Positions 18,202-46,615 of a stretch of 64,000 nucleotides of DNA are shown here, piece after piece (within the stretch, counting starts at the first letter, position 1; the number at the start of each line of letters is the position of its first letter). Under the pieces are notes generated by a model, which saw only the letters and a program-made list of their open reading frames with translations, was not told where the DNA came from and ran no database searches. The translations under genes and the position numbers were made by a program. Source of the stretch: Asterionellopsis glacialis. Taxonomy: Eukaryota > Bacillariophyta > Plagiogrammaphyceae > Rhaphoneidales > Asterionellopsidaceae. The stretch lies in the NCBI GenBank assembly GCA_014885115.2, contig WKLE02000110.1:8835-72834 (forward strand), in the 5' to 3' direction.

Positions 18202-21200
18202 TTATTCATTATCCTTGATTCCCTTGATCCAGTAAGTTTCCATTGTACCTTTACCTTTTATATCAACATTGCCTCGTAATTCTATATCAATTTCTGGAGC
18301 TATGTCTTTGAGAATTTTGGCGGTGACTTCCGTGCACTGGCAGCGATTTGGCTCACTTGTTGTCTCCATTCGTGAGGCAGTATTAACCGTGTCCCCGAAA
18401 AGAGTATATTTCGGGTGCTCCGAGCCACCAATGACAGTAGCAACAACCGAACCAGTAGCGATACCAAATCTTACTTGAACGTACCCTAAGTGAGGTTTGG
18501 ACGGGCAAATAAGTGTTCTGCGGGCACATTCAATTGCATCCAATGCAAACGTTGCAGCTTTCCTCGCATGGAAAGGATCCATGGTTGGAACGCCGGCCAC
18601 GCCAATAAAAGCATCGCCAATAATATCCAGCTTCTTCACGTTGTGTTGCCGACAAAGGGTGTCAAACTGAGATAGCAATCGTCCAATGAGGTCCCCAACT
18701 TCTTCTGCTGTTAGAACGGAGCTAATTTTGGTGAACTCTACAATATCAGAAAAGATCATAGAGGCATCCTCGTAAGGCACCGGTGGTACACTCTCTCCCC
18801 TGGCAAGTGTGTCCTGAACGTCACGAGGTAAAATGGTATCAAACATACTACCTCGACGCATTAATTGTTGCGCAACGGTCTCATTTGATACTACAGCATC
18901 TAATCTTTCCTCAATTTCATGCATGGTAGGTCGACGTTTGGGGTTCTATAAAAACAAGCAGATAATCCAACACAAATGCAAATACGATTAGAACCACACT
19001 TGGAAATACTTTGGATTTATGCGAGATAGTTGGAATTCTTACCTTATGCCAGCATTCAATACAGATGTCCCGAAGCACTTGAGGGGCGTCATCCGGTATA
19101 TCTGGACGAAAAGGAGGATCAAGAGTCAAATCTTTAACTTTTTCAATAATTTCCTCGCGGGTATACATTTCTCCACCGACAGTTCCAAGAAATTCGTAAC
19201 ATCCTTTGGATGACACATTCGAATTTCCAGCACTTGCGAGAGAATTGCGGCGGCGACTCTTTGAAGAATCATCTGGCTCCTTTTCACTCTCCTCGGAAGT
19301 CCTGCTCGAGAAAGATACTCTCCTTCCTGTTTTCCTTGTTACAGGATCCTCAGTAATTGGTATTTCCGCGATTTGTTGAATAGCTAGTGTTTCTTCTAGT
19401 TCAGGTTCATCTACGGCACTGGATTGAGAAATATCGAAATCAACCAAATCAAGGTCAGAGCCGTTCAATTCATTGTCGTTCTCCTTGCTACCATCTTTAC
19501 TACTATCCAAATGTTCACCGCCACTATGCATCGACCACGAAAATTCACGATCTCTAGTTCCTTGTTTATTTGAATAAGCCTTCACATTGTAAGGCCTGCC
19601 TCGTGTCATCAACTCGCAAAGGAACATGGCAAATGAATAAACATCAGAAGCGGGCGATGGTTGGTGTCCATGTAAGACTTCTGGGGCCATAAACAGAACA
19701 GAGCCCTTAGGAGTTTGGGACTTATTGAGCCAGCCCCACAAACCTTTCATTGTTTTACTCGCCAATCCAAAATCCGAAATATGAGCATTAAATGATCCAT
19801 CCACAAGCACATTAGAACTCTTGAGATCATTGTGCAGAAGTGGACCATAGGGTGCTGGAAAAGAATGAAGGAACGAGAGCCCTCGTGCAACTTGAAGTGC
19901 CCACTGAATTTCAACTGACATTATTGCTGTACCTGCCATGCCATCAGGGTTTTTGAGAACTTTTCGAATGGTATTGTGTTCCATGTATTCAAGAATAATA
20001 ATCATTTCGTTATTTATAATTGTCGCTCCAAGAGTCTCCACAACGTTTGGATGACGCAGTTGAATCAATGTTTGAAGCTCCTTACGCAAAGGGTGCGACT
20101 TCGAAGCATTCGACATGCCGGAGCCACTAAAGCGCGTGGTGTCCATTGTGGGATCGGCTTCAACTTCTTTGACATCTAAATCGGCGCTGTCTTCGATATG
20201 AGGCTTCTTAAGTGCTACAGCAGACCCACGGAGGAATCCTTTTGTAACGATACCAAACGATCCTTTTCCCAATACCTCTCCAGTGTCAATTATATCAGAT
20301 GGGTTGATATACCATGAATTCTCTTCTCTCTTTTTCCGATCCTGTAGCAAACATAAAATGAATTTCGTAAGAAAATGTTCAAGGAACAGAGAAGGTTGTG
20401 TATCATGTCAACTCAAAAGCAACTTACTTGGCGGATAATTAGGAAAGCAATGAAGATAGCTGAAAATACCACAGTACCAAACACTGTTACAGAGATTCCA
20501 GCGATAGCAGCCGAACCGAGATCTTTATCGTTGCCACCACGAGGAATTTCAGGTTCTGGCGGTGAGTAAACACCTCGAAGCTTTTGGTAGATTTCGAGAA
20601 GAGGCGTAGTTGTAGTATCTTTTGCATCATAATCAGAAATTGATTTTCTCCAAGACGAAGCAAGCTTTGCCGATATATCTCTTCGCAACTGTGCGCGTTC
20701 TTCTGCAGGGATAGGATTTTCGCTCACAATTGTATCCTGAAGGTACGTAAAGGTTTCTTCATCAAGTGAACCAAGAATTTCAGGTGCTGTTGGGAACCGA
20801 ATATCAGCGACAACATTTTCAGAACTGAGCTGCGATTGGATAGCATCAAGATAATTGCGGGTTGCATCTTCGGGGTAGTCACGATCTACCCATTTATTCA
20901 GCTGCAAAAGTGACTTTCGATACGGGTCCATTCCAGTTGGAATGACCTCTTGAGTCCGATCAGGTATTACATATTGGATTGCTTGAGTACTATCGGATGC
21001 AAAAGCTAAAAACTCTGCCGCAGCAATCCTGTGCTCGGGGGACACATTGTTTGAAACTGCTCCACTCCATCCAGCATATGCTGCGTATGGTGCCTGGTTG
21101 ACATACATAACATTTCCATCATCGTCCGTATGTTCAACAGCAAATGGGCAGGTTTCAAGTGTGCAATTCTCCAAATTCCCTGAAGTCCGATTTAAAATGT

Positions 21201-22194
21201 ATGGTGAACCGGGAGCATCTGCTACCCCTAGCTTTCCACGCACTACACTTCCATCGGCAACGTGCTCCGTAAAGCTGTTACCCCAATTATAGGTAATGGC
21301 ACATTCGCCACGATTCATGGCTTGCACATTGATTCCTACACACCCATCAAATTCATCAGATGTCCCCACCTTTGCCTGTTCTTCCAAGATACGAAGAGTC
21401 TCCTCCATGGCAGGCCCAAGGAGGGGTGAGAGATCTTTCGTGTCTAAAAGAGATCCTTTATCTGTGCCGCTATACTGTGTCATTGACGCAAGGATACTTT
21501 GTGCCCAGTAGGCTCCTCCACAACCAGGCGCACGTCCAATACATGAGCCAGCTAATGTACCATTTTGAATTTTTCCAGATGTAGCATTAAAGATTTCAGC
21601 TGGCATTCCATGGAAAAAATTTGCAACCTTAATGTACTCGTCCCAAGTTTTCGGAACAGAAATGTTATGTTGATCAAAAAGATCTTTGCGATAATAGAGA
21701 GAGAAAACGTCACCATCGAAAGGCATCAACAGAATTTTGCTGTCGTACGTACTGAGAATATCTCGATAAAATAAAAGCACATCCAACCAAAAACTCGGAT
21801 TCCCATCGTAGTTTTTGATAAATTCAGAGAGATCAAAAAGACCATCATTACTGGACAATTCGCCGGTAATAATGGGATTAATAATATACCCATCAAATTG
21901 CCTTTGCTTATTTTTTGCATCGAAGATAACTTCGTTCTGAAGTTCGGTGATGGAATCGACACCCTTCACAAGCACTTCCACGTCTTGACCTTTCACGCGA
22001 CGGTACTCAATAGCAACCCGATCTAACATTGATTTGAAATTAGCATAACCTAATTCAGGGACAAGTAATTTGATCTGTATCTTTTCTGGAGATGTCGTTT
22101 CATTGCAAACGCACGGTACAGGAGGTGGACAGACAAGCTCGTCGTCGAGACGACGTTTCTGAAAGGGCGACGTGCCTAAATTCCTACGAAGCAT
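18202..22194 (-). CDS. Solute-binding domain / protein kinase / class III nucleotide cyclase receptor
   Basis: Three exons (22194-20428, 20341-19043, 18945-18202; introns 86 and 97 bp, both phase 0) give 1269 aa. Residues about 35-545 resemble a bacterial extracellular sugar-binding protein (MPFDGDVFSLYYRKDLFDQH, PKTWDEYIKVANFF, GWSGAVSNNVSPEHRIAAAEF). A helix at about 562-587 spans the membrane. The kinase (about 608-1040) keeps GKGSFG (614-619), Lys634, HNDLKSSN with Asp761, DFG (779-781) and APE (808-810), so it looks catalytic. It carries a disordered insert of about 130 residues with RRVS and RRNS sites. After the linker LPRDVQDTLARGE comes the cyclase: metal Asp1089 and Asp1133, Asn1210 and Arg1214. 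The two base-selecting positions are Asp1129 and Thr1203, so cAMP or cGMP as product is unclear. No signal peptide follows the chosen Met; a stop lies just upstream, so a 5' exon may be missing. Confidence 0.9.
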
Positions 22195-24291: not shown

Positions 24292-27200
24292 CTAGTCTTC
24301 TTTAGACTCCGATTCAGTTCCAGGCTTCGAATCATCAGCGGGTGGACTGGTTTCTTCTACTGATGTAGTTTCTTGTGGCGGCGAAGGTGGAGTCCATTCA
24401 AAAGGTTCAGGTGCAGGTGCCTCACCTTCTGGCTCGAGAGATGGAGCCTTCACGGCTTCGAGTTCCTCCGCTTCTCCTGGAGTTGAGTCTGTCAGTATAA
24501 CAACTCCAAATGGTTTTTCTTCAGAGCGAATTGGCCTATACCGCTGTTCAAGATCAAATTCGCAAACCTCCTTCTGAGACTTTGTAATTCGAGACGGGTT
24601 CTGTATGCGGAAAGACTTTGGTTCTGGCTCTCTTTTTTTCTTCGGTTTCTTTTCTTCAGCAACCTCAATTTCCATACTTTCACCTTCTCCTTCCTTGGCA
24701 TCAGAAGACTCCTTTTCTTTACTAGCTTCAGCCTCCTCTTTATCAACTTCCATGTCAGTCGGACCGTGTTCACCCTCTTCTTTGGCTTTCTTTCTTGCAA
24801 GACGCGCCTTATTTTTGGCGGTAGTTGACAGAGTGACAGTTTCGACGCGCTTCTTCTTCTCTTCCTTCTTTTCTTCCAGCTTTTTTGGATAAGCAAACAC
24901 GCTAGGTTTGGAATTGCATTGGATTTCAAAATTCTTGGGGTATTTGAAGTCTTTATTGAGGCCAATCGTCAGTGTTGGAGTTAGTGCAAGACTTATCATA
25001 TGCATCATAGGATACCAATGCCAGTGCTGGAGCCAAAGAGCTAAACCGACAGCTGTTGTCATCTTTGTAAATCCGTTACGAGAACCCAATACAAGAGAAC
25101 AGTTTCGTCCACCAGCATCAATTAGGCCGGTAGAAAGAATTGCACCCATTTTGGTCAATGTACTTTGGTGCTTGTCACTAACAATTGTTGTCAACTTTTC
25201 TCGGAAGGAGCGGATCTTTCGCGAATTGCATGTATCACTCTGTTCCATGTAAATCATGGCTGTTCCAAGTAAAGCACCTTGGCGGACATAATCAGTCATA
25301 TCGTCCAGCATGGGCTCCAATAAGGCAACACTTTCGGAATCGCCAGACCCAGCCATGGCAATACCAACAGCCATACAACTGGCATATCGGACATGTGGGT
25401 TGAAACTTTCGAGTAGCAGCTTTACAAGCTCAGGTACACGCTCAGGTGTCTTGTATAAAACAAAGGCTAAGCCAATGACAGCAGCCATTCGAACGTCATC
25501 GCTAACATCACTAACGGCAGTGTGAAGCAAGATTCGAATCGCTTTGTTGGACCCAGTTCCACAGTAAGCAAGGGCCAATGCATACTGAGCACCGTATCTC
25601 AAAATCGGATCGCGGTCACTTCGCATTTCCTCAATGATTGCATCCGCATTCTCTTCTTGCCCGAAATTAATGAGGGCAATCCCCATAGCAATACCACGAA
25701 TGATCTTTTCGTGTTGCGTTTCCCTTGCGTAATTTTTGAGTTCTGACACCATCTCCATGATTTCTTCTTTGTCCTGTGGAGGGAGAGAGTTATGGACGTT
25801 TCCTGCGCCACTTCCCACGAGCACCATACCAATTGCCATGCCTGCCGCTTCTCCAGCCACAGCCGAATCCGTGTAAAGAAGTTCCTTCAATTCATTGATA
25901 ATGCTCAATTCGCATGACCCAAACGAGGTGAGACCGACTCCGAGTGCAGCACCGTGACTAATGACTTCGTTTGCATGGGACACCCTCAGATGGTTTCGAA
26001 TAAAGTCAGAGGTTTCTTTTCTCTTTTCGGAAGATGACCCAGCATGAGATCCATGAATGATGCCAAGCGCAAAAAGACTTCCTCCTTCGGCATAACCTCC
26101 CTGAGGTGAGACATTTGGGGGGGCTCCCCCATCTACCTCATTGCCTTCCACAGATGCTGGAAGGTAGGGTTGCAAGAGATTCATAGCTTCCGTAGTGTGC
26201 CCGGCATGAATCACACCAAGAGATGCTGTTGCTGAGAATTTAGCCCTTTCGAGAGTAGAAACAGAACAAATGTGAAGACTTAGTTTTAATTCGGGTGATA
26301 AAAGCACACAACATCTATTTTGAATTCTTACCAGTTGGATGCTTTCTTCATCCAGTCTAAATGATCCCTGAGAAAGGAATCGTTGGTAGTTCCAGCATGA
26401 AGATATGCATGCGTCATAACAGCTGCATTGTGAAGAACAGAATTACGAGATGATCCGCGTTGTTCTAAGGCCTTCTTGAGATTATCCATGATGAGGCGGT
26501 CTGAATGAGAGTTTTTATGCAAAAAAGATAGAGAAAGTTCTGATGAAAAGCCTCCTGTGAGGACTCGGCTCGCTTGATCCCAACGAGCTTTGATTTCGTC
26601 GGTCGCCTCCTCACCGAGGGAACCCATTAATCCTTCTGCCACGCGTTGAACAAAAGCCTGGTCACCACTGTCAACAAGATTGAAGATCAGCTGGTACCCT
26701 AAAAGCATATCTTCCTCGGATCCTTTTAAGAGGGAATCAAATACTTTGGCAACAGGCTCAGCATTTCCCAGAAGCTGCTGAACATGAACCAAATCAGCTG
26801 ATGCTGCCCTCTTTCCGTTTTCAAATTGTTCTGCAAGAAATTCTGCCATAACAGCGATTGCTTCCAACCTAAACGATTTTAGTGTAACTGTTGGAAGTGC
26901 ATTTAATGCGTAACGCAGGGTATCCGTGAGTGCCTCATCTCCCTTGCTTTTGGCTGAAGCTAGAATGTCTTTAACCTTGCCAGTTTCACGTGACTCTAGC
27001 GCAATACCAAGAGCATGTCCATATTTTTCCGTAACACAGCAATTCTCCAACATACGATAAACGAGGCCTTTGAGTTGATCTGTATTGAGCTCTGCACCGG
27101 GGGGTGCCTCCTCAGTGCTGGTGCCTTCTTCTTCGTCCTTTCGTGCCTGAATGTAAACATCGAGAGCCGCCTTGATGAGACGCTCTACGTACGGTGTGCT

Positions 27201-27518
27201 TCGGTCCAGGTGAAAGTGTGCCTCACCAGCTTCCAATGCCAATCTTAATGCTTGTGTAGGTTCCTCGAGGTGAAAGAATACACGAGAGGCAACAGCAGCC
27301 GCGGTCTGACGCATTTCCAAAGGAAGTTCCGTATCTTCCGCCAAGGCTTCGAGTGATGGAAGGGCTTCTGCCACTTCATGCCAAAGCGTATCAACACATG
27401 CTAGTAACTTTTTTAGGGCGTGTTGACGAAGAGCAATATCTGACTCTTCCAACAATGCCAAGTATCCCGACGCAGTTGCCGTCGGAATTCCCATTGGCGC
27501 CATGGTAGCTGTCGCCAT
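24292..27518 (-). CDS. RPN2: 26S proteasome regulatory subunit Rpn2 (PSMD1)
   Basis: Two exons, 27518-26332 and 26245-24292, with an 86-bp GT-AG intron (26246-26331, phase 2), give 1046 aa. The Met at 27518 (MATATMAPMG) is preferred; an in-frame ATG at 27575 would add 19 residues. Splicing restores ASNWAKFSATASLGVIHAGH, a hallmark of the family. Proteasome/cyclosome repeats are visible (GGYAEGGSLFALGIIHG, SHGAALGVGLTSFGS, ILRYGAQYALALAYCGTG, VRYASCMAVGIAMAGSG). A KEKE-type acidic/basic tract (about 825-910) follows, then the conserved SRITKSQKEVCEFD. Rpn2 is a scaffold of the 19S base that holds Rpn13 and Rpn1-Rpt subunits. The tail holds PEPFEW, like the Rpn13-binding tail, but about 35 residues from the end rather than terminal. 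Confidence 0.96.
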
Positions 27519-28086
27519 TTTTGCGTTTGTTACAATGTTATTATGGTTAGACTGATGGACAGATCGCAAAATCATAACTCCTTCTCGATTACATCCAGAG
27601 CGCCGACAACGTTCGGCTCAGTTCGACCGCCTTCGAACGATTTCCATGTACATTTCTGTAGAATACATACTGAAACACCTGTCAGACAGGATGACAAACA
27701 AACATTCGATTGGTCACTCTGCATCGTTTATTAGTACTCCTACAGAAGAGCTAAGTCGTGGGGAGTGACCAAAAGATTTGAAGTCGGTGTCGGTTGTCGC
27801 CCGGTTTTGAAAGCATCAAGTCAGCACGCACCAGCAGGCCCCAGCAAGCACCCACGACATTTCTTCCAACTTGAGCAACAACATTACAGCAGGTCCGTTA
27901 AGAACAGACACCGACACGACCTCATGTGTACAGGAAACTAGGACTACACCCATTCAATAATATAGGACCAAGTTTTGTTTTGTTTGTAAAACATACATTT
28001 GTTTGATACAAAAGTCTAAAGGTATATCGAAGCAGGTTCAAAAAGGAAGTCGAGATAGATTTTGGAATTTGAATTGGGGGAACATC
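27519..28086. promoter_or_regulatory. Divergent intergenic region (Rpn2 / Prp16)
   Basis: 568 bp between two divergent starts, holding copy 4 of the TGGGGAGTGA 10-mer (27759-27768), 241 bp from the Rpn2 start and 319 bp from the Prp16 start. CACCAGCAGGCCCCAGCAAGCACC-like short direct words lie near 27828. No gene. Confidence 0.4.
27759..27768 (+). promoter_or_regulatory. Candidate upstream element TGGGGAGTGA, copy 4
   Basis: Exact 10-mer midway in a divergent promoter region between two core housekeeping genes. Function not shown. Confidence 0.25.
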
Positions 28087-31000
28087 ATGTCGAATCGTAA
28101 TTCAAGTGATGATAATAATAATAAAAGTAGTAGTGGAGACACACAAAGAAAGGATGACAATCACACAAGATTAACATCCTTGCTTCCATCGTCAGGTGGA
28201 GGTCTCATGATGAAGAAGAAACCTTCCAGTACATCATCCAACAATAATAATAATAGTAATCAAGATGATGGAAGTCATTCCAACACTTCTACTGTTAAGA
28301 GTAGTCTTTTGGGATTAGATCGACTAGCTTCAGAGAAACGATCAAAAAAACAGCAGCAACAACAACAAAAGTCATCCAAACCACCACCAAAACGACAATA
28401 TCGTAGAATACAAGATGAAACACCATCTCATCCTGGAGGTATTAATCGAGATGCACAATATAGAGCACGAGAACGTGACAACCGTGATCGAAGACGACGT
28501 TCAAGTCATGATGATTATGACGATACAAGGGATTATCGTAAACGTGATCGATCACAAAGTGGTAGAAGTTACAATGATGATAATAACAATGGTAATGATG
28601 ATTATGATAATCGAAACAATCGTCATCAAAAAAGTCGAAGAAATTACAGAGATGATAATTATGATAACAACAAGGACAGAAATAGTAGAAGAGATGATAA
28701 TAGAAGAGGGAGAGGTGATTATTATCATGGCAATCACAGAAATCAACGAGACGAAGAAGATTATTATAATCGACGTAGTAGACCCTCATCAACATCAAAT
28801 CAAGATGGTCAAGATACCAGAAGAAGATTACATCCATCATCATCATCAAGTATGCCGCCACCATCACAACAACAACAGCGACAACAATATCAAAAAACAC
28901 AAAATGTTACACCATCCACATTTGCTTCCTCCCAACGTTCCGAACAAAGAGGTAGACCTTCCACTTTTCGATCCAACAATAGTGGTAGTAGTCTTACACG
29001 AGGAAGAGGAGGAGAATATGACAATGATGGCTCTTCTTCTATCAATGCACCAACACCTATGCGTGAACCACCACGAAACGAAAGGGGGAGAAATAGTGTG
29101 AATAACAATAATCGTCATCGCCTGTCTACCAGCAATAATTCTTCTTGGGAAGTAGAAACACCGCTATCCAATCATCCACGTGATAATGAAGATTCCATCT
29201 TACGTCGATCAAGTGCTGCTAGAAATAATGATGACAATGGTGATAATGATATGAATGATACAAAATTACCATCTTCAAGTGGTAATGACAACAATAACGA
29301 CGATGACGACGAATTTGATAGACAATTTTATCTTGCAGAAGATGTGGGTGGATATGTTGTAGATCAATCTGAAATGGCAGCCAATAATGATTTAGGACGG
29401 TTCTTGTATGAAAATGATAAGATCAAGGCACGAGAAGCTGAATTGGAAAAGAAACGTCAAGAAGCACCCATGGGACGATTCTCGACACGTAAAAATGCAT
29501 TGTTAGATGATCAAGAAGCATGGGAAGAAAACCGATTACTAAGTTCAGGTGCTGCCATCAAGGGTGAAGTATCACTTGATATTAGTAATGATGATGATAG
29601 TCGCGTCACATTGCTAGTACATCAAGTCAAACCACCATTTTTGGATGGACGTGCTTCCTTCTCCACCATACGCGAAGCTGTCCCTACCGTAAAGGATGCA
29701 ACATCTGACTTTGCACGAATGGCACGAGATGGATCTTCTACCTTGCGTCATTTACGTGAAACGAAAGAAAAAAATACCATGAGACAAAAGTTTTGGGAAC
29801 TAGGCGGTACTCGTATGGGAAAGGCTGTAGGTGTCACGGAGGGAGGAGAGAACGGAGAAAACAATAACAAAGATGGTGGTTCAGCAACAAAGAAAGAATC
29901 TTCTAGCGGAACTAAAGAAAGTTTACAAGCAGATGGTGAGATTGATTATAAAAAATCAAGTGGATTTGCATCCCATGTGAAAAAACAAAAGGCTACAGAT
30001 GGGCCTGTATCGGAATTTGCTAAGAAAAAATCAATTCGTCAACAACGTGAATATTTACCAGTCTATTCTGTCCGTGAGGAACTCCTCAATGTTGTTCGAG
30101 AAAATACAGTAGTTGTTATCGTGGGTGAAACAGGCAGTGGTAAGACAACACAATTGACTCAATACCTAATGGAAGAAGGTTATTGTGAATTTGGTATGGT
30201 AGGTTGTACTCAGCCAAGACGTGTTGCAGCCATGAGTGTTGCAAAAAGAGTTAGTGAAGAGGTTGCCGCAGGTGTGAAAGAAAAGGGTTTACCTCTCACT
30301 GAAAAGGAGGAATTGGGAGGTACAGTGGGATATGCAATCCGTTTTGAGGATCAAACATCTGAAAACACACTTATCAAGTATATGACAGATGGTGTTCTGT
30401 TGCGAGAATCTCTACGAGACCCTGACCTTAACAAATACAGTGCCATTGTTATGGATGAAGCTCATGAACGGAGTTTGAATACAGATGTTTTGTTTGGAGT
30501 TTTGCGTAAGGTCGTTGCGAGACGGTCAGATTTGAAATTGATTGTTACGAGTGCAACGTTAAGTGCTGATGTCTTCAGTAGCTTCTTTGGAGGTGTACCA
30601 GTGTTTCGGATTCCTGGAAGAACTTTCCCAGTAGAAACTTACTATGCAAAGTCTGTTCAAGAAGACTATGTTATGGCAGCCGTAAAGCAAACTCTGCAAA
30701 TTCATTTCAATAGCCCTCCAGGTGATATCTTGATTTTCATGACAGGTCAAGAAGATATTGAAGGAACTTGTTCTGTACTAGCAGAAAAGGTCGAGCAATT
30801 GGGAGACGACACCCCTCCATTGCTGGTGCTACCCATGTATTCGCAGCTTCCTGCTGATCTACAAGCTAAAATCTTTGAGGCAGCACCCAAGGGTGTCCGG
30901 AAATGTATCGTTTCAACGAATGTTGCGGAGACCAGTTTAACAGTGGATGGAATCAAGTATGTAATTGACTGTGGATTTTGTAAGCTTAAAGTCTACAATT

Positions 31001-32202
31001 CTAAGATTGGCATGGATGCTTTACTCGTTACACCTGTCAGTAAAGCAAATGCCAACCAACGTAGTGGTCGTGCTGGTCGTACAGGACCGGGATTTTGTTT
31101 CAGATTGTACACTGACCGTCAGTACCGTGATGAATTGATGGAAAGTTCTGTCCCCGAAATTCAACGAACAAATCTTGGTAATGTTGTTTTGTTGCTCAAG
31201 TCTCTTGGAGTTAAAAATCTGCTCGAATTTGACTTTATGGACCCACCTCCCCAAGACAATATTATGAATTCTCTCTATCAGCTTTGGATCCTTGGAGCAC
31301 TAGATAACATGGGTGACTTGACACCTATGGGACGGCACATGGTTGAGTTCCCACTTGATCCGCCATTAAGTAAGATGCTTTTGTTTGCGCATGAGAAGGG
31401 TGGATGTTCTGCTGAAGTATTGATAATTGTCAGCATGTTGAGTGTCCCCAGTGTCTTTTTCCGTCCAAAAGACCGCGAAGAAGAGAGCGATGCTGCTCGA
31501 GAAAAATTCTTTGTTCCGGAGAGTGATCACTTGACTCTACTGAATGTCTACTTGCGAGCCAAACAATATAAATTCGATCCCCAGTGGTGCACACGACATT
31601 TTATTCACTCCAAGGGTATTCGTAAGGCCCGCGAAGTACATGCGCAACTTGTCGATTTAATGAAGCAACAAAAACTCAACCCAAAAAGTTGTGGCGGATC
31701 TTGGGATATTGTTCGCAAATCTATCTGCTCTGCGTACTTCTACAACAGCTCCAAAATCAAAGGTATTGGTGAATATATCAACATGCTATCAGGTATACCA
31801 TCTGCGCTTCACCCGTCAAGTTCGTTGTTTGGACTAGGGTATACCCCTGACTATGTGTGCTACCACGAATTAATCAGCACATCCAAGGAGTACATGTCCT
31901 GTGTGACTGCAGTTGAAGGTGAGTGGCTAGCAGAATTGGGACCCATGTTCTTTAGTGTTAAGGAGTCCTTCGAAAGTACATTGCGTAGACGACAGAAGCA
32001 ACGAACTGATGCTGAAGAGCTAGAGAAGCAAATGGATGAGAAACGCCGACAAGAGAAAGAGGAGGAAAAACGTGAAAAAGAAAGACAGAGCACATTGGCT
32101 CGAACAGGATTGGGAAACCGAAGTGCCATTGCGACACCTGGAAGGATAGCAAACTCTACGCCAAAGTTCATGCCAAAGAAACGTGGACGCCTTGGTTTCT
32201 AA
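28087..32202 (+). CDS. PRP16: Pre-mRNA-splicing ATP-dependent DEAH RNA helicase Prp16 (DHX38)
   Basis: Single exon, 1371 aa from the first ATG (MSNRNSSDD); the frame is open a further 84 bases upstream without an ATG. Residues 1-390 are Asn/Asp/Arg/Ser-rich and disordered, with RD/RS-like runs. A Prp16-specific N-terminal block follows (about 414-490: [30 protein letters not shown]). The helicase core has GETGSGKT (about 680-687), DEAH near 790, SATL near 822, then [14 protein letters not shown] and [14 protein letters not shown]2 and OB domains complete it ([24 protein letters not shown]). A charged coiled coil (about 1310-1345) closes the protein. Prp16 remodels the spliceosome after the first step of splicing, in the nucleus. 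Lack of introns in a splicing factor gene is unremarkable here. Confidence 0.95.
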
Positions 32203-44461: not shown

Positions 44462-46078
44462 CTAGTGAGGAATGCAGTCTTTTACTCGAAACATGTATGC
44501 ACTCCCGTTTTCAAAGTCTTTCCCTTCCCAGTCAAGGTAGAAGGCTCCTATGGCAAGTGTATTTCTATCAATTGCAACAGCAGCACCAAAGTGATCATTT
44601 TCGGCAGTATTGTGGCCCGTTAGCTTCGTAAGTTGTTCCCAGTGTTTGTCCGTTCGTTTGAAAACATAGACACTACCAGTATTCCAAAGTCCATTAATGT
44701 TACCCTTTGATGCACCTATGACTGCAACGTCACCATGTATTGAAACAGAATTTCCGAAATGGTCTCCACTTTGAGCATCTGTAGCAACCAGTTTGCTCTG
44801 TTCAATCCACTCTCCATTCGTTTCATGAGATCGTACAAAAACATAGACACTTCCTGCATCAGGTCCGCCACTATGGTCATCGTGTATAGCACCCACAACG
44901 ATAGTGTCGTCGTGAATTGTAACACTTGAACCGAATGCATCATTATAACTTGCATCACTAGAAGTAAGTTTTTGTTTCTCTAACCATACATCATCACTTG
45001 ATCGTGTAAATACATAGGCACATTCACCTTCCCTCCATGCTCCAATTACAATCGTATCTCCATGAATTGCCACTGATCTTCCAAATTCATCTTTGTACTC
45101 ACTATCATTTGGAACAAGCTTCGCCTGTTGTTTCCAAATGTCGTCGGACCGAACAAAGACATATGCACTTCCTCCATCTTCCAGTACAGTTTTACCTCCT
45201 GATACACTTGGATCAATAGCATGATCATCTCGGTAAGATCCAATTACAATGGTGTCACCATCAATTCCTACTGATGATCCAAAGTGATCATTCTCAAATG
45301 GGTCACTGGCAGTCAATAGTTGTTGCTTCACCCATTCTCCTTCTTCATCTTGATCAGTGTCAAAACGTTTCACAAAAACGTAAGCACTACCACTAAAAAC
45401 ACCATGCTGGTCGTCGGCAAATGCACCAACGACAATAGTTGCACCACTCATGGCAACAGCATTTCCAAAGAAATCACCAATCTTATTAGACATGATCTTG
45501 CTTTGTTGAAACCAAGCGTTGTTTATTGTATCACGCTGAAAGATGTAGACAATACCAGGTTCTGTTTCACCATCCCCTGGAGCACCAATAATTGCTGTAT
45601 TTGTTTCGTCATCGACCGCCACACTAAATCCAAATTCGTCATACGGGAAAGCTTCACTTCCCTCAAGGGTACTTTCTTCAACGATGATGGTTGCAGAATG
45701 ATGATCTTGATCGGGACACTCATCACCACTAGAAGTAGAGAAGCTGCTGAGATCATTTGAAGACGAGGAATCATGATTATCCTGAATAATCAATGTCGTT
45801 TTACCTTTCTGGTTTGAGTTCTTGTTATTATTACTCAATGCAACACTAAGAATTATCGACAAAGAGATAAGAAGAAGAACAATAAATGCGATAACTATTT
45901 TGCTTATCTTCTTTTTGTGGTGCAAGACTGAGTCCGTGGTAGTGGTATCGAACTCATCTGCAAACCTTTCAGGTGAAGAAAAAGAAGGCGGAGTTGGGGG
46001 AGGAATATCTTCTAATTCTTCTCCTACTGTAGTGTTCAAGACTGTGATGGAAGTTGACGATGGACTATTGGAAACCAT
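44462..46078 (-). CDS. Membrane-anchored FG-GAP seven-bladed beta-propeller protein
   Basis: Single exon, 538 aa. An N-terminal cytosolic segment with Pro run (IPPPTPPSF), a Lys cluster and one helix (about 59-80) give a type II protein. After a Ser-rich linker come seven repeats of about 50 residues, each of the form FG-SVAI-GDTIVIGA-...-GSAYVFVR (for example VAIHGDTIVIGAWREG and VSIHGDVAVIGASKG). Seven copies fit one closed propeller of the integrin-alpha FG-GAP kind. Asp-rich loops suggest Ca2+ or ligand binding. It probably faces the lumen or cell surface, in adhesion or cargo binding (inference). It shares an upstream region with the divergent gene at 46616. Confidence 0.88.
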   Translation of the reverse strand: MVSNSPSSTSITVLNTTVGEELEDIPPPTPPSFSSPERFADEFDTTTTDSVLHHKKKISKIVIAFIVLLLISLSIILSVALSNNNKNSNQKGKTTLIIQDNHDSSSSNDLSSFSTSSGDECPDQDHHSATIIVEESTLEGSEAFPYDEFGFSVAVDDETNTAIIGAPGDGETEPGIVYIFQRDTINNAWFQQSKIMSNKIGDFFGNAVAMSGATIVVGAFADDQHGVFSGSAYVFVKRFDTDQDEEGEWVKQQLLTASDPFENDHFGSSVGIDGDTIVIGSYRDDHAIDPSVSGGKTVLEDGGSAYVFVRSDDIWKQQAKLVPNDSEYKDEFGRSVAIHGDTIVIGAWREGECAYVFTRSSDDVWLEKQKLTSSDASYNDAFGSSVTIHDDTIVVGAIHDDHSGGPDAGSVYVFVRSHETNGEWIEQSKLVATDAQSGDHFGNSVSIHGDVAVIGASKGNINGLWNTGSVYVFKRTDKHWEQLTKLTGHNTAENDHFGAAVAIDRNTLAIGAFYLDWEGKDFENGSAYMFRVKDCIPH

Positions 46079-46615
46079 AATGAATTGTGCTGACCGTAAA
46101 ATGAATGATATCTCGTTTGTATGCGATGAATGTAATAAGAAAGAATATTATACTAGCAATCTGTTTGGAAGTACTTCAGGAGAGGGTCACTGGAGTTCTT
46201 TTTTGGCGAGATTGACTTTCAAATTTGAGAATGAGAATTCTTCTGGCAGGCGTCTATGCACAACACAAGATGATAAAGATACCTTTCGTACGCACCTTTA
46301 AACCGGAAGTACTGGTCCTACCTGTACCTTTCTACCTGGGATGGTGTCAGGTACGAACCAGTTCGATTTATGAATGTCCATCATCCATGAAGTCCATATT
46401 AGGTAGAATCCATGCACGAACGGTTTGCACTCGTTTGTAGGACATATTTGAGATAACTGCTGACGTAAACAAGGGGGATTATGTCAAGCAACGGAGGCAT
46501 CACGAACAAGAACACCAAAAGAATTGAAGATAGACAAAGCACCGCAGAACCCATGGTGGTAACTTGACAATGGCATAGTGTCATTCTACCTTTACGGAAA
46601 CAAAATATACGAAAA
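46079..46615. other. Divergent intergenic region
   Basis: 537 bp between divergent starts. Short TACCTGTACC words near 46320. No gene supported. Confidence 0.45.

Follow-up and report, generated by a model that had tools for sequence, protein, structure and literature searches.

A putative diatom receptor joining a bacterial sugar-type solute-binding domain to a protein kinase and a class III nucleotide cyclase

Receptor guanylate cyclases of animals consist of a ligand domain, one membrane helix, a kinase-like domain and a class III cyclase in a single chain (PMC1435932). The ligand module of the natriuretic peptide receptors is of the type I periplasmic-binding kind (PMC5168858), and the kinase-like domains between the ANF and cyclase domains have been described as lacking the catalytic Asp (PMC2754085). 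Type II solute-binding protein (SBP) domains have been reported on class C G protein-coupled receptors of gut fungi (PMC5168858) and periplasmic-binding domains on those of diatoms (PMC3727952). Published accounts describe diatom membrane cyclases that react to pheromone, acyl-homoserine lactones or bacterial exudates (PMC6688387, PMC7296067, PMC8027222), and a part in the recognition between diatoms and bacteria has been suggested for receptor-type guanylate cyclases (PMC6688387). Here a gene of the diatom Asterionellopsis glacialis is described, located at 18202..22194 on the reverse strand of a 64,000-nucleotide stretch of contig WKLE02000110.1 (the window). It encodes a type II SBP ectodomain, one membrane helix, a TKL-type protein kinase and a class III nucleotide cyclase in one chain. 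Judged from sequence comparison, the architecture is real and conserved, and its parts look mostly intact.

The gene was modelled with three exons; coordinates are window positions on the reverse strand unless stated otherwise. Exon 1 (20428..22194) encodes the N-terminus, the ectodomain and the membrane helix (residues 1–589), exon 2 (19043..20341) most of the kinase including a long insert, and exon 3 (18202..18945) the kinase end and the cyclase. Intron 1 (20342..20427, 86 nt, GTAAGT…TACAG) and intron 2 (18946..19042, 97 nt, GTAAGA…TATAG) were placed by eye from GT…AG sites. From start codon to stop, the spliced exons amount to 3810 nt, or 1269 amino acids plus the stop. Exon joining and re-translation reproduced the coordinates, strand, introns and residue numbers of a preliminary description of this DNA. 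Its claim that all four parts lie in one chain was borne out by Pfam, by hydropathy and by a near-identical database entry, P0001, whose source is a JGI contig 4181 bases long. P0001 skips both introns and spans every domain, and only 2 of 1269 residues differ (327 and 699). Neither intron length is divisible by three and therefore simple read-through could not have yielded P0001; the contig behind it is probably a transcript. The same domain order was seen in P0002, P0003, P0004 and P0005 (the last a Thalassiosira exigua protein, ACHAWF_011875), with ectodomain identities of 47–57%; the N-terminal part is missing from two shorter entries, P0006 and P0011. Diatoms are among the named relatives of the gene and its paralogues. 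In keeping with a diatom, the genome also contains a gene for a silicon transporter (PF03842, E 7.3e-82, above the cut-off, which none of 14 control genomes passed).

The ectodomain comprises residues 38–533 (20596..22083). Two Pfam families were matched above their curated cut-offs, SBP_bac_1 (5.8e-10, residues 83–328; 40.1 against 26 bits) and SBP_bac_8 (1e-7, residues 113–405). A PDB sequence search and a fold search both returned solute-binding proteins, and in the predicted structure the type II SBP fold spans the whole ectodomain. For residues 35–545, where a sugar-binding-protein-like domain had been proposed, Pfam, PDB sequence and fold searches thus agree on an SBP, of type II and sugar-type. 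A Cys is invariant across the aligned relatives. NCBIfam searches with four bacterial relatives gave no usable ligand name, three having matches far below the cut-off and one having no match.

Bacterial and archaeal genomes were scanned for relatives of the ectodomain, and 80 loci were kept among at least 492 confirmed relatives. Identity to the bacterial relatives was 27–35% (26 of the 80 loci compared). Genes in the fetched flanks of each locus were identified from their similarity to a set of eight query proteins. In 72 of the kept loci the SBP gene is flanked by genes for an ABC permease or ATPase, and three of these loci also hold a signal-protein gene. Four loci showed neither transporter nor signal genes; in these the sequence stops no more than 300 bases past the downstream end of the SBP frame. 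The four cyanobacterial loci (L058, L071, L082, L087), all that were kept, have SBP genes beside HAMP, histidine-kinase or SpoIIE-type signal-protein genes, in tandem in three, and no permease was seen in their flanks. Bacterial SBP–PBP1/LacI proteins (P0015, P0154, P0155) were considered as the source of the sensor and dropped; lone SBPs score far better.

A midpoint-rooted tree was built from 54 ectodomains, with four long branches flagged. Nineteen eukaryotic rows fall into a single clade (100/100), which adjoins the 28 nearest bacterial rows at 93/83, below the program's star. By a simple-pattern search, a Cys-containing insert that starts with PGS and holds (L/F/Y/W)(D/N)R and two Cys was found in 17 of the 19 rows of this clade and in 13 of 34 bacterial rows. 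The kinase–cyclase ectodomains form a clade of seven rows (100/99), made up of five full receptors together with P0129 and P0131, which have SBP and helix without kinase and are taken for exon 1 of kinase–cyclase receptor genes. This clade joins two rows with an SBP on a seven-helix membrane (7TM) domain and two SBP–helix rows (99/94), and eight other SBP–7TM rows stand apart. The simplest reading would be one capture from bacteria with later swapping between receptor bodies. The genome of A. glacialis itself (40.3 Mb, 1503 contigs) was also searched. On contig C603 (L043, 36312-37629) an SBP ectodomain 48% identical to that of the window gene (residues 122–382) is followed by a frame that encodes a 7tm_3 domain together with the remainder of the SBP, the two making up an SBP–7TM gene. 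Contig C569 carries a 904-aa frame (L054:1228-3939) with SBP_bac_1 and a cyclase and without a kinase; its SBP lacks the insert and lies outside the eukaryotic clade, on one of the flagged branches.

On balance we lean, by a small measure, towards a single-pass receptor in which an SBP sensor on the outside is coupled through its ligand to an active TKL kinase and to cyclic-nucleotide output. The type II ABC-sugar-type domain, captured from bacteria, would face the outside or a lumen and would close around its ligand, a small solute that is most probably a sugar or a compound resembling one. This closing would alter the packing of two chains across the membrane. The change in packing would let the TKL-type Ser/Thr kinase autophosphorylate, with its Ser-rich insert as the probable site, or phosphorylate partners, and it would also align the paired cyclase domains to form cyclic nucleotide, cGMP being likelier than cAMP. 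Nutrient sensing with such a dual output had been suggested in the preliminary description, and we infer the same.

Several features weigh against this reading. The ectodomain model is of moderate confidence, with a predicted local distance difference test (pLDDT) of 71.8 and a predicted template modelling score (pTM) of 0.70. The catalytic loop of the kinase reads HND in place of HRD in the branch of the window gene (HAD in the branch of P0004 and P0005). In the cyclase, D1129 and T1203, which we take to be the purine-selecting positions, stand against E/C in the aligned natriuretic peptide receptor 1, and the DIVGFT metal loop has E1092 instead of its usual Gly. That Gly is found in 11 of 15 readable relatives, P0001 being set aside as the same gene and the pattern being unmatched in two further rows; otherwise the position is Gln in P0006, Ser in P0002, Asp in P0018 and Asn in P0026. 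As P0006 and P0002, the two nearest relatives, are without this Gly too, the cyclases of this sub-branch may have reduced activity. No signal peptide was found in the gene model, the best 19-residue hydropathy mean among windows that begin within the first 25 residues being 0.13.

The kinase extends from residue 608 to about 1040 (18892..20287) and is split by intron 2. PK_Tyr_Ser-Thr was matched above its curated cut-off (3.8e-39, residues 608–840), and among the best 60 of 738 PDB matches TAK1 came first, then BRI1; BIK1, MLK4, IRAK4, CTR1 and also MET were among these 60. The Gly loop, K634 (20207–20209), the αC Glu E677, D761 (19826–19828), the DFG motif (D779 at 19772–19774, F780, G781) and APE are all present in the alignment, with K634, D761 and DFG as previously assigned. 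With this full set of catalytic residues the TKL-type kinase looks active. The C-lobe insert, rich in Ser and charged residues, spans residues 848 to 985 or so (19154..19567), with limits drawn by eye in the alignment. It is about 138 residues long and poorly conserved among relatives, and a role as a target of phosphorylation would be speculative.

The kinase alignment had 43 rows: 25 kinase–cyclases without an animal name or ANF domain, 10 animal-type rows, and eight left uncounted in which an alignable kinase or the cyclase is missing. The 25 rows include the window gene twice (WIN and P0001), P0017 without its N-lobe, and many rows without an organism name. The catalytic Asp is kept in 23 of the 25 (Asn in P0055, a gap in P0029), including P0021 from the choanoflagellate Salpingoeca rosetta. 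An intact kinase is therefore not special to the window protein, and the idea that it was retained only here was rejected. The earlier contrast with a dead kinase in animal receptor cyclases stands: the Asp occurs in none of the 10 animal-type rows (HGN, HGK or HGR; two of the ten are isoforms of one snail gene).

These counts bear on the possibility that the receptor works in the animal manner, the kinase being mainly an ATP-sensing regulatory scaffold and the cyclase the sole output. Such a working would agree with the order of the parts, with natriuretic peptide receptor 1 as the best PDB match of the cyclase (E 1.4e-36) and with the missing Arg of HRD. It is nevertheless unlikely, as members of the SBP kinase–cyclase family, about 50% identical, retain K, E, D, DFG and APE, whereas the animal-type rows have lost the Asp. 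Grouping of SBP kinase–cyclases with animal receptor cyclases is neither firmly placed nor rejected (42/78 in the kinase tree; p-AU 0.134 for the cyclase). The SBP kinase–cyclases form a separate clade at 100/100 in both trees, and their nearest group is that of the kinase–cyclases with Phosphonate-bd or FG-GAP ectodomains (94/93 in the kinase tree, 94/91 in the cyclase tree).

The class III cyclase comprises residues 1078–1264 (18220..18780), which matched Guanylate_cyc above its curated cut-off (8.8e-46). D1089, D1133, N1210 and R1214 are all in place and do not vary across seven aligned rows; we take the first two to be the metal Asp residues and the last two the transition-state pair. This domain match and these residues uphold the earlier assignment to class III. 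The D/T purine pair fits neither E/C nor the Lys/Asp of adenylate cyclases, and K/D was seen in the bacterial cyclase rows. Across the Phosphonate-bd/FG-GAP group (11 rows) the pair reads E/C five times, E/T four times, E/S once and D/T once (P0024), and E/T is also found in three animal rows. Asp is more like Glu than like the Lys of adenylate cyclases, and for this reason GTP would be a likelier substrate than ATP, although D1129/T1203 and E1092 speak against taking guanylate cyclase output as given. The same residues, with Gln and Ser replacing the loop Gly in the two nearest relatives, would suit a reading in which cyclase activity has been reduced or lost in this sub-branch and phosphorylation is the only response to ligand binding. 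We regard this as distinctly unlikely: both metal Asp residues, N1210 and R1214 are kept in a domain of high score, and other kinase–cyclases share the deviations, D/T being found in P0024 and the loop Gly being absent from P0018 and P0026.

Hydropathy placed the membrane helix at about residues 562–587 (20434..20511), followed by RQDRKKR. The best 19-residue Kyte–Doolittle mean was 2.67 here and the next best elsewhere 1.29, so the single helix proposed earlier is a single strong hydrophobic stretch. In a three-frame reading by eye, no ATG-led hydrophobic stretch was found within about 1 kb upstream; one frame held a short hydrophobic stretch without Met, for which no plausible splice was found. 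If the missing signal peptide is taken at face value, the SBP domain would stay in the cytosol or an organelle and sense an internal metabolite, and P0003 likewise begins without a signal peptide by eye. This is quite improbable in view of the same SBP domain N-terminal to 7tm_3 receptors, the invariant Cys and seven N-glycosylation sequons against 3.6 expected by shuffling, although 6% of shuffles reach seven; a first exon with the signal peptide could also be missing from the model. That two or three separate genes were fused in the reading, a thought prompted by introns placed by eye, is very unlikely and close to refuted by the continuity of P0001 and the order shared by P0002–P0005.

Ordinary housekeeping genes lie next to the receptor gene in the window, namely the 26S proteasome subunit RPN2 in two frames (24292-27617) and a DEAD/DEAH-type helicase on the forward strand (27961-32202). 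A 561-aa frame at 44462-46147 has seven FG-GAP_2 repeats (5.1e-101); FG-GAP-type repeats also accompany kinase–cyclases in P0018 and P0026. Elsewhere in the genome, two further kinase–cyclases have a Phosphonate-bd ectodomain (contigs C398 and C542). The one on C542 (L045:2642-6385) has Gln aligned at the first metal Asp; its cyclase may be dead while the kinase is kept. On contig C543 a class III cyclase is preceded, in a 596-aa frame (L047:1317-3104), by an N-terminal domain of the ethylene-receptor type (ETR1_N, 1.6e-15), and a 1273-aa frame on contig C980 (L052:1961-5779) runs from several PAS domains into the start of another class III cyclase.

The ectodomain comes from a well-studied binding-protein class, and ligand screening should therefore be straightforward. 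Protist kinase–cyclases that keep the Asp bear on the puzzle of the dead kinase in animal receptor cyclases, and an ectodomain common to 7TM and kinase–cyclase receptors would be a bacterial uptake module turned eukaryotic sensor. Tentatively, one bacterial ABC-sugar-binding protein captured by diatoms could be present in two bodies, seven-helix and kinase–cyclase, the latter a two-output nutrient receptor in which a working kinase and a working cyclase answer to a single ligand, with a live-kinase design that animal receptor guanylate cyclases have lost; we put this broader view at somewhat below even.

Compared with known systems, the parts of the window receptor follow one another as they do in natriuretic peptide receptor 1, GC-C and the nematode GCYs. 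The animal receptors differ in their ectodomain (ANF_receptor, PF01094, rather than SBP_bac_1/8), in the loss of the kinase Asp and in the purine pair (E/C, or E/T in two nematode rows, rather than D/T). The ligand domain is thus a different one at the family level, as the preliminary description held, but both are of the periplasmic-binding type, type II ABC-sugar-type here and type I in animals. Bacterial ABC sugar-binding proteins such as Arad_9887, MalE3 and the trehalose/maltose-binding protein share fold and sequence family with the ectodomain; they are free-standing and mostly encoded beside transporter genes, whereas here the SBP is part of one chain with a kinase and a cyclase. SBP–7TM class C-like receptors (PF13416/PF01547 with PF00003) have the same type II sugar-type ectodomain, and the rows found fall in the same ectodomain clade, but their output is a seven-helix domain. 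The receptor-type guanylate cyclases of Seminavis robusta are likewise diatom membrane cyclases; the GC/PDE (guanylate cyclase/phosphodiesterase) topology described there has a phosphodiesterase, unlike the window receptor, and the available parts of these accounts, which do not spell out the domain make-up of all 45 receptor-type genes, mention neither an SBP ectodomain nor an active kinase. No description of the SBP, kinase and cyclase combination was found among the literature matches listed, all of them open-licence papers. Among the best 120 of 377 matches, other kinase–cyclases have Phosphonate-bd (PF12974, including Salpingoeca rosetta), FG-GAP/VCBS (P0018 and P0026, the CCRYP tag of the latter presumably standing for Cyclotella cryptica) or NMT1 (P0035) ectodomains. 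The Phosphonate-bd and FG-GAP kinase–cyclases of diatoms and S. rosetta show the ectodomain–TKL kinase–cyclase order and the kept Asp seen here, with another ectodomain family. The window gene is thus a new variant in a wider class of protist receptor kinase–cyclases, set apart by its captured sugar-type sensor.
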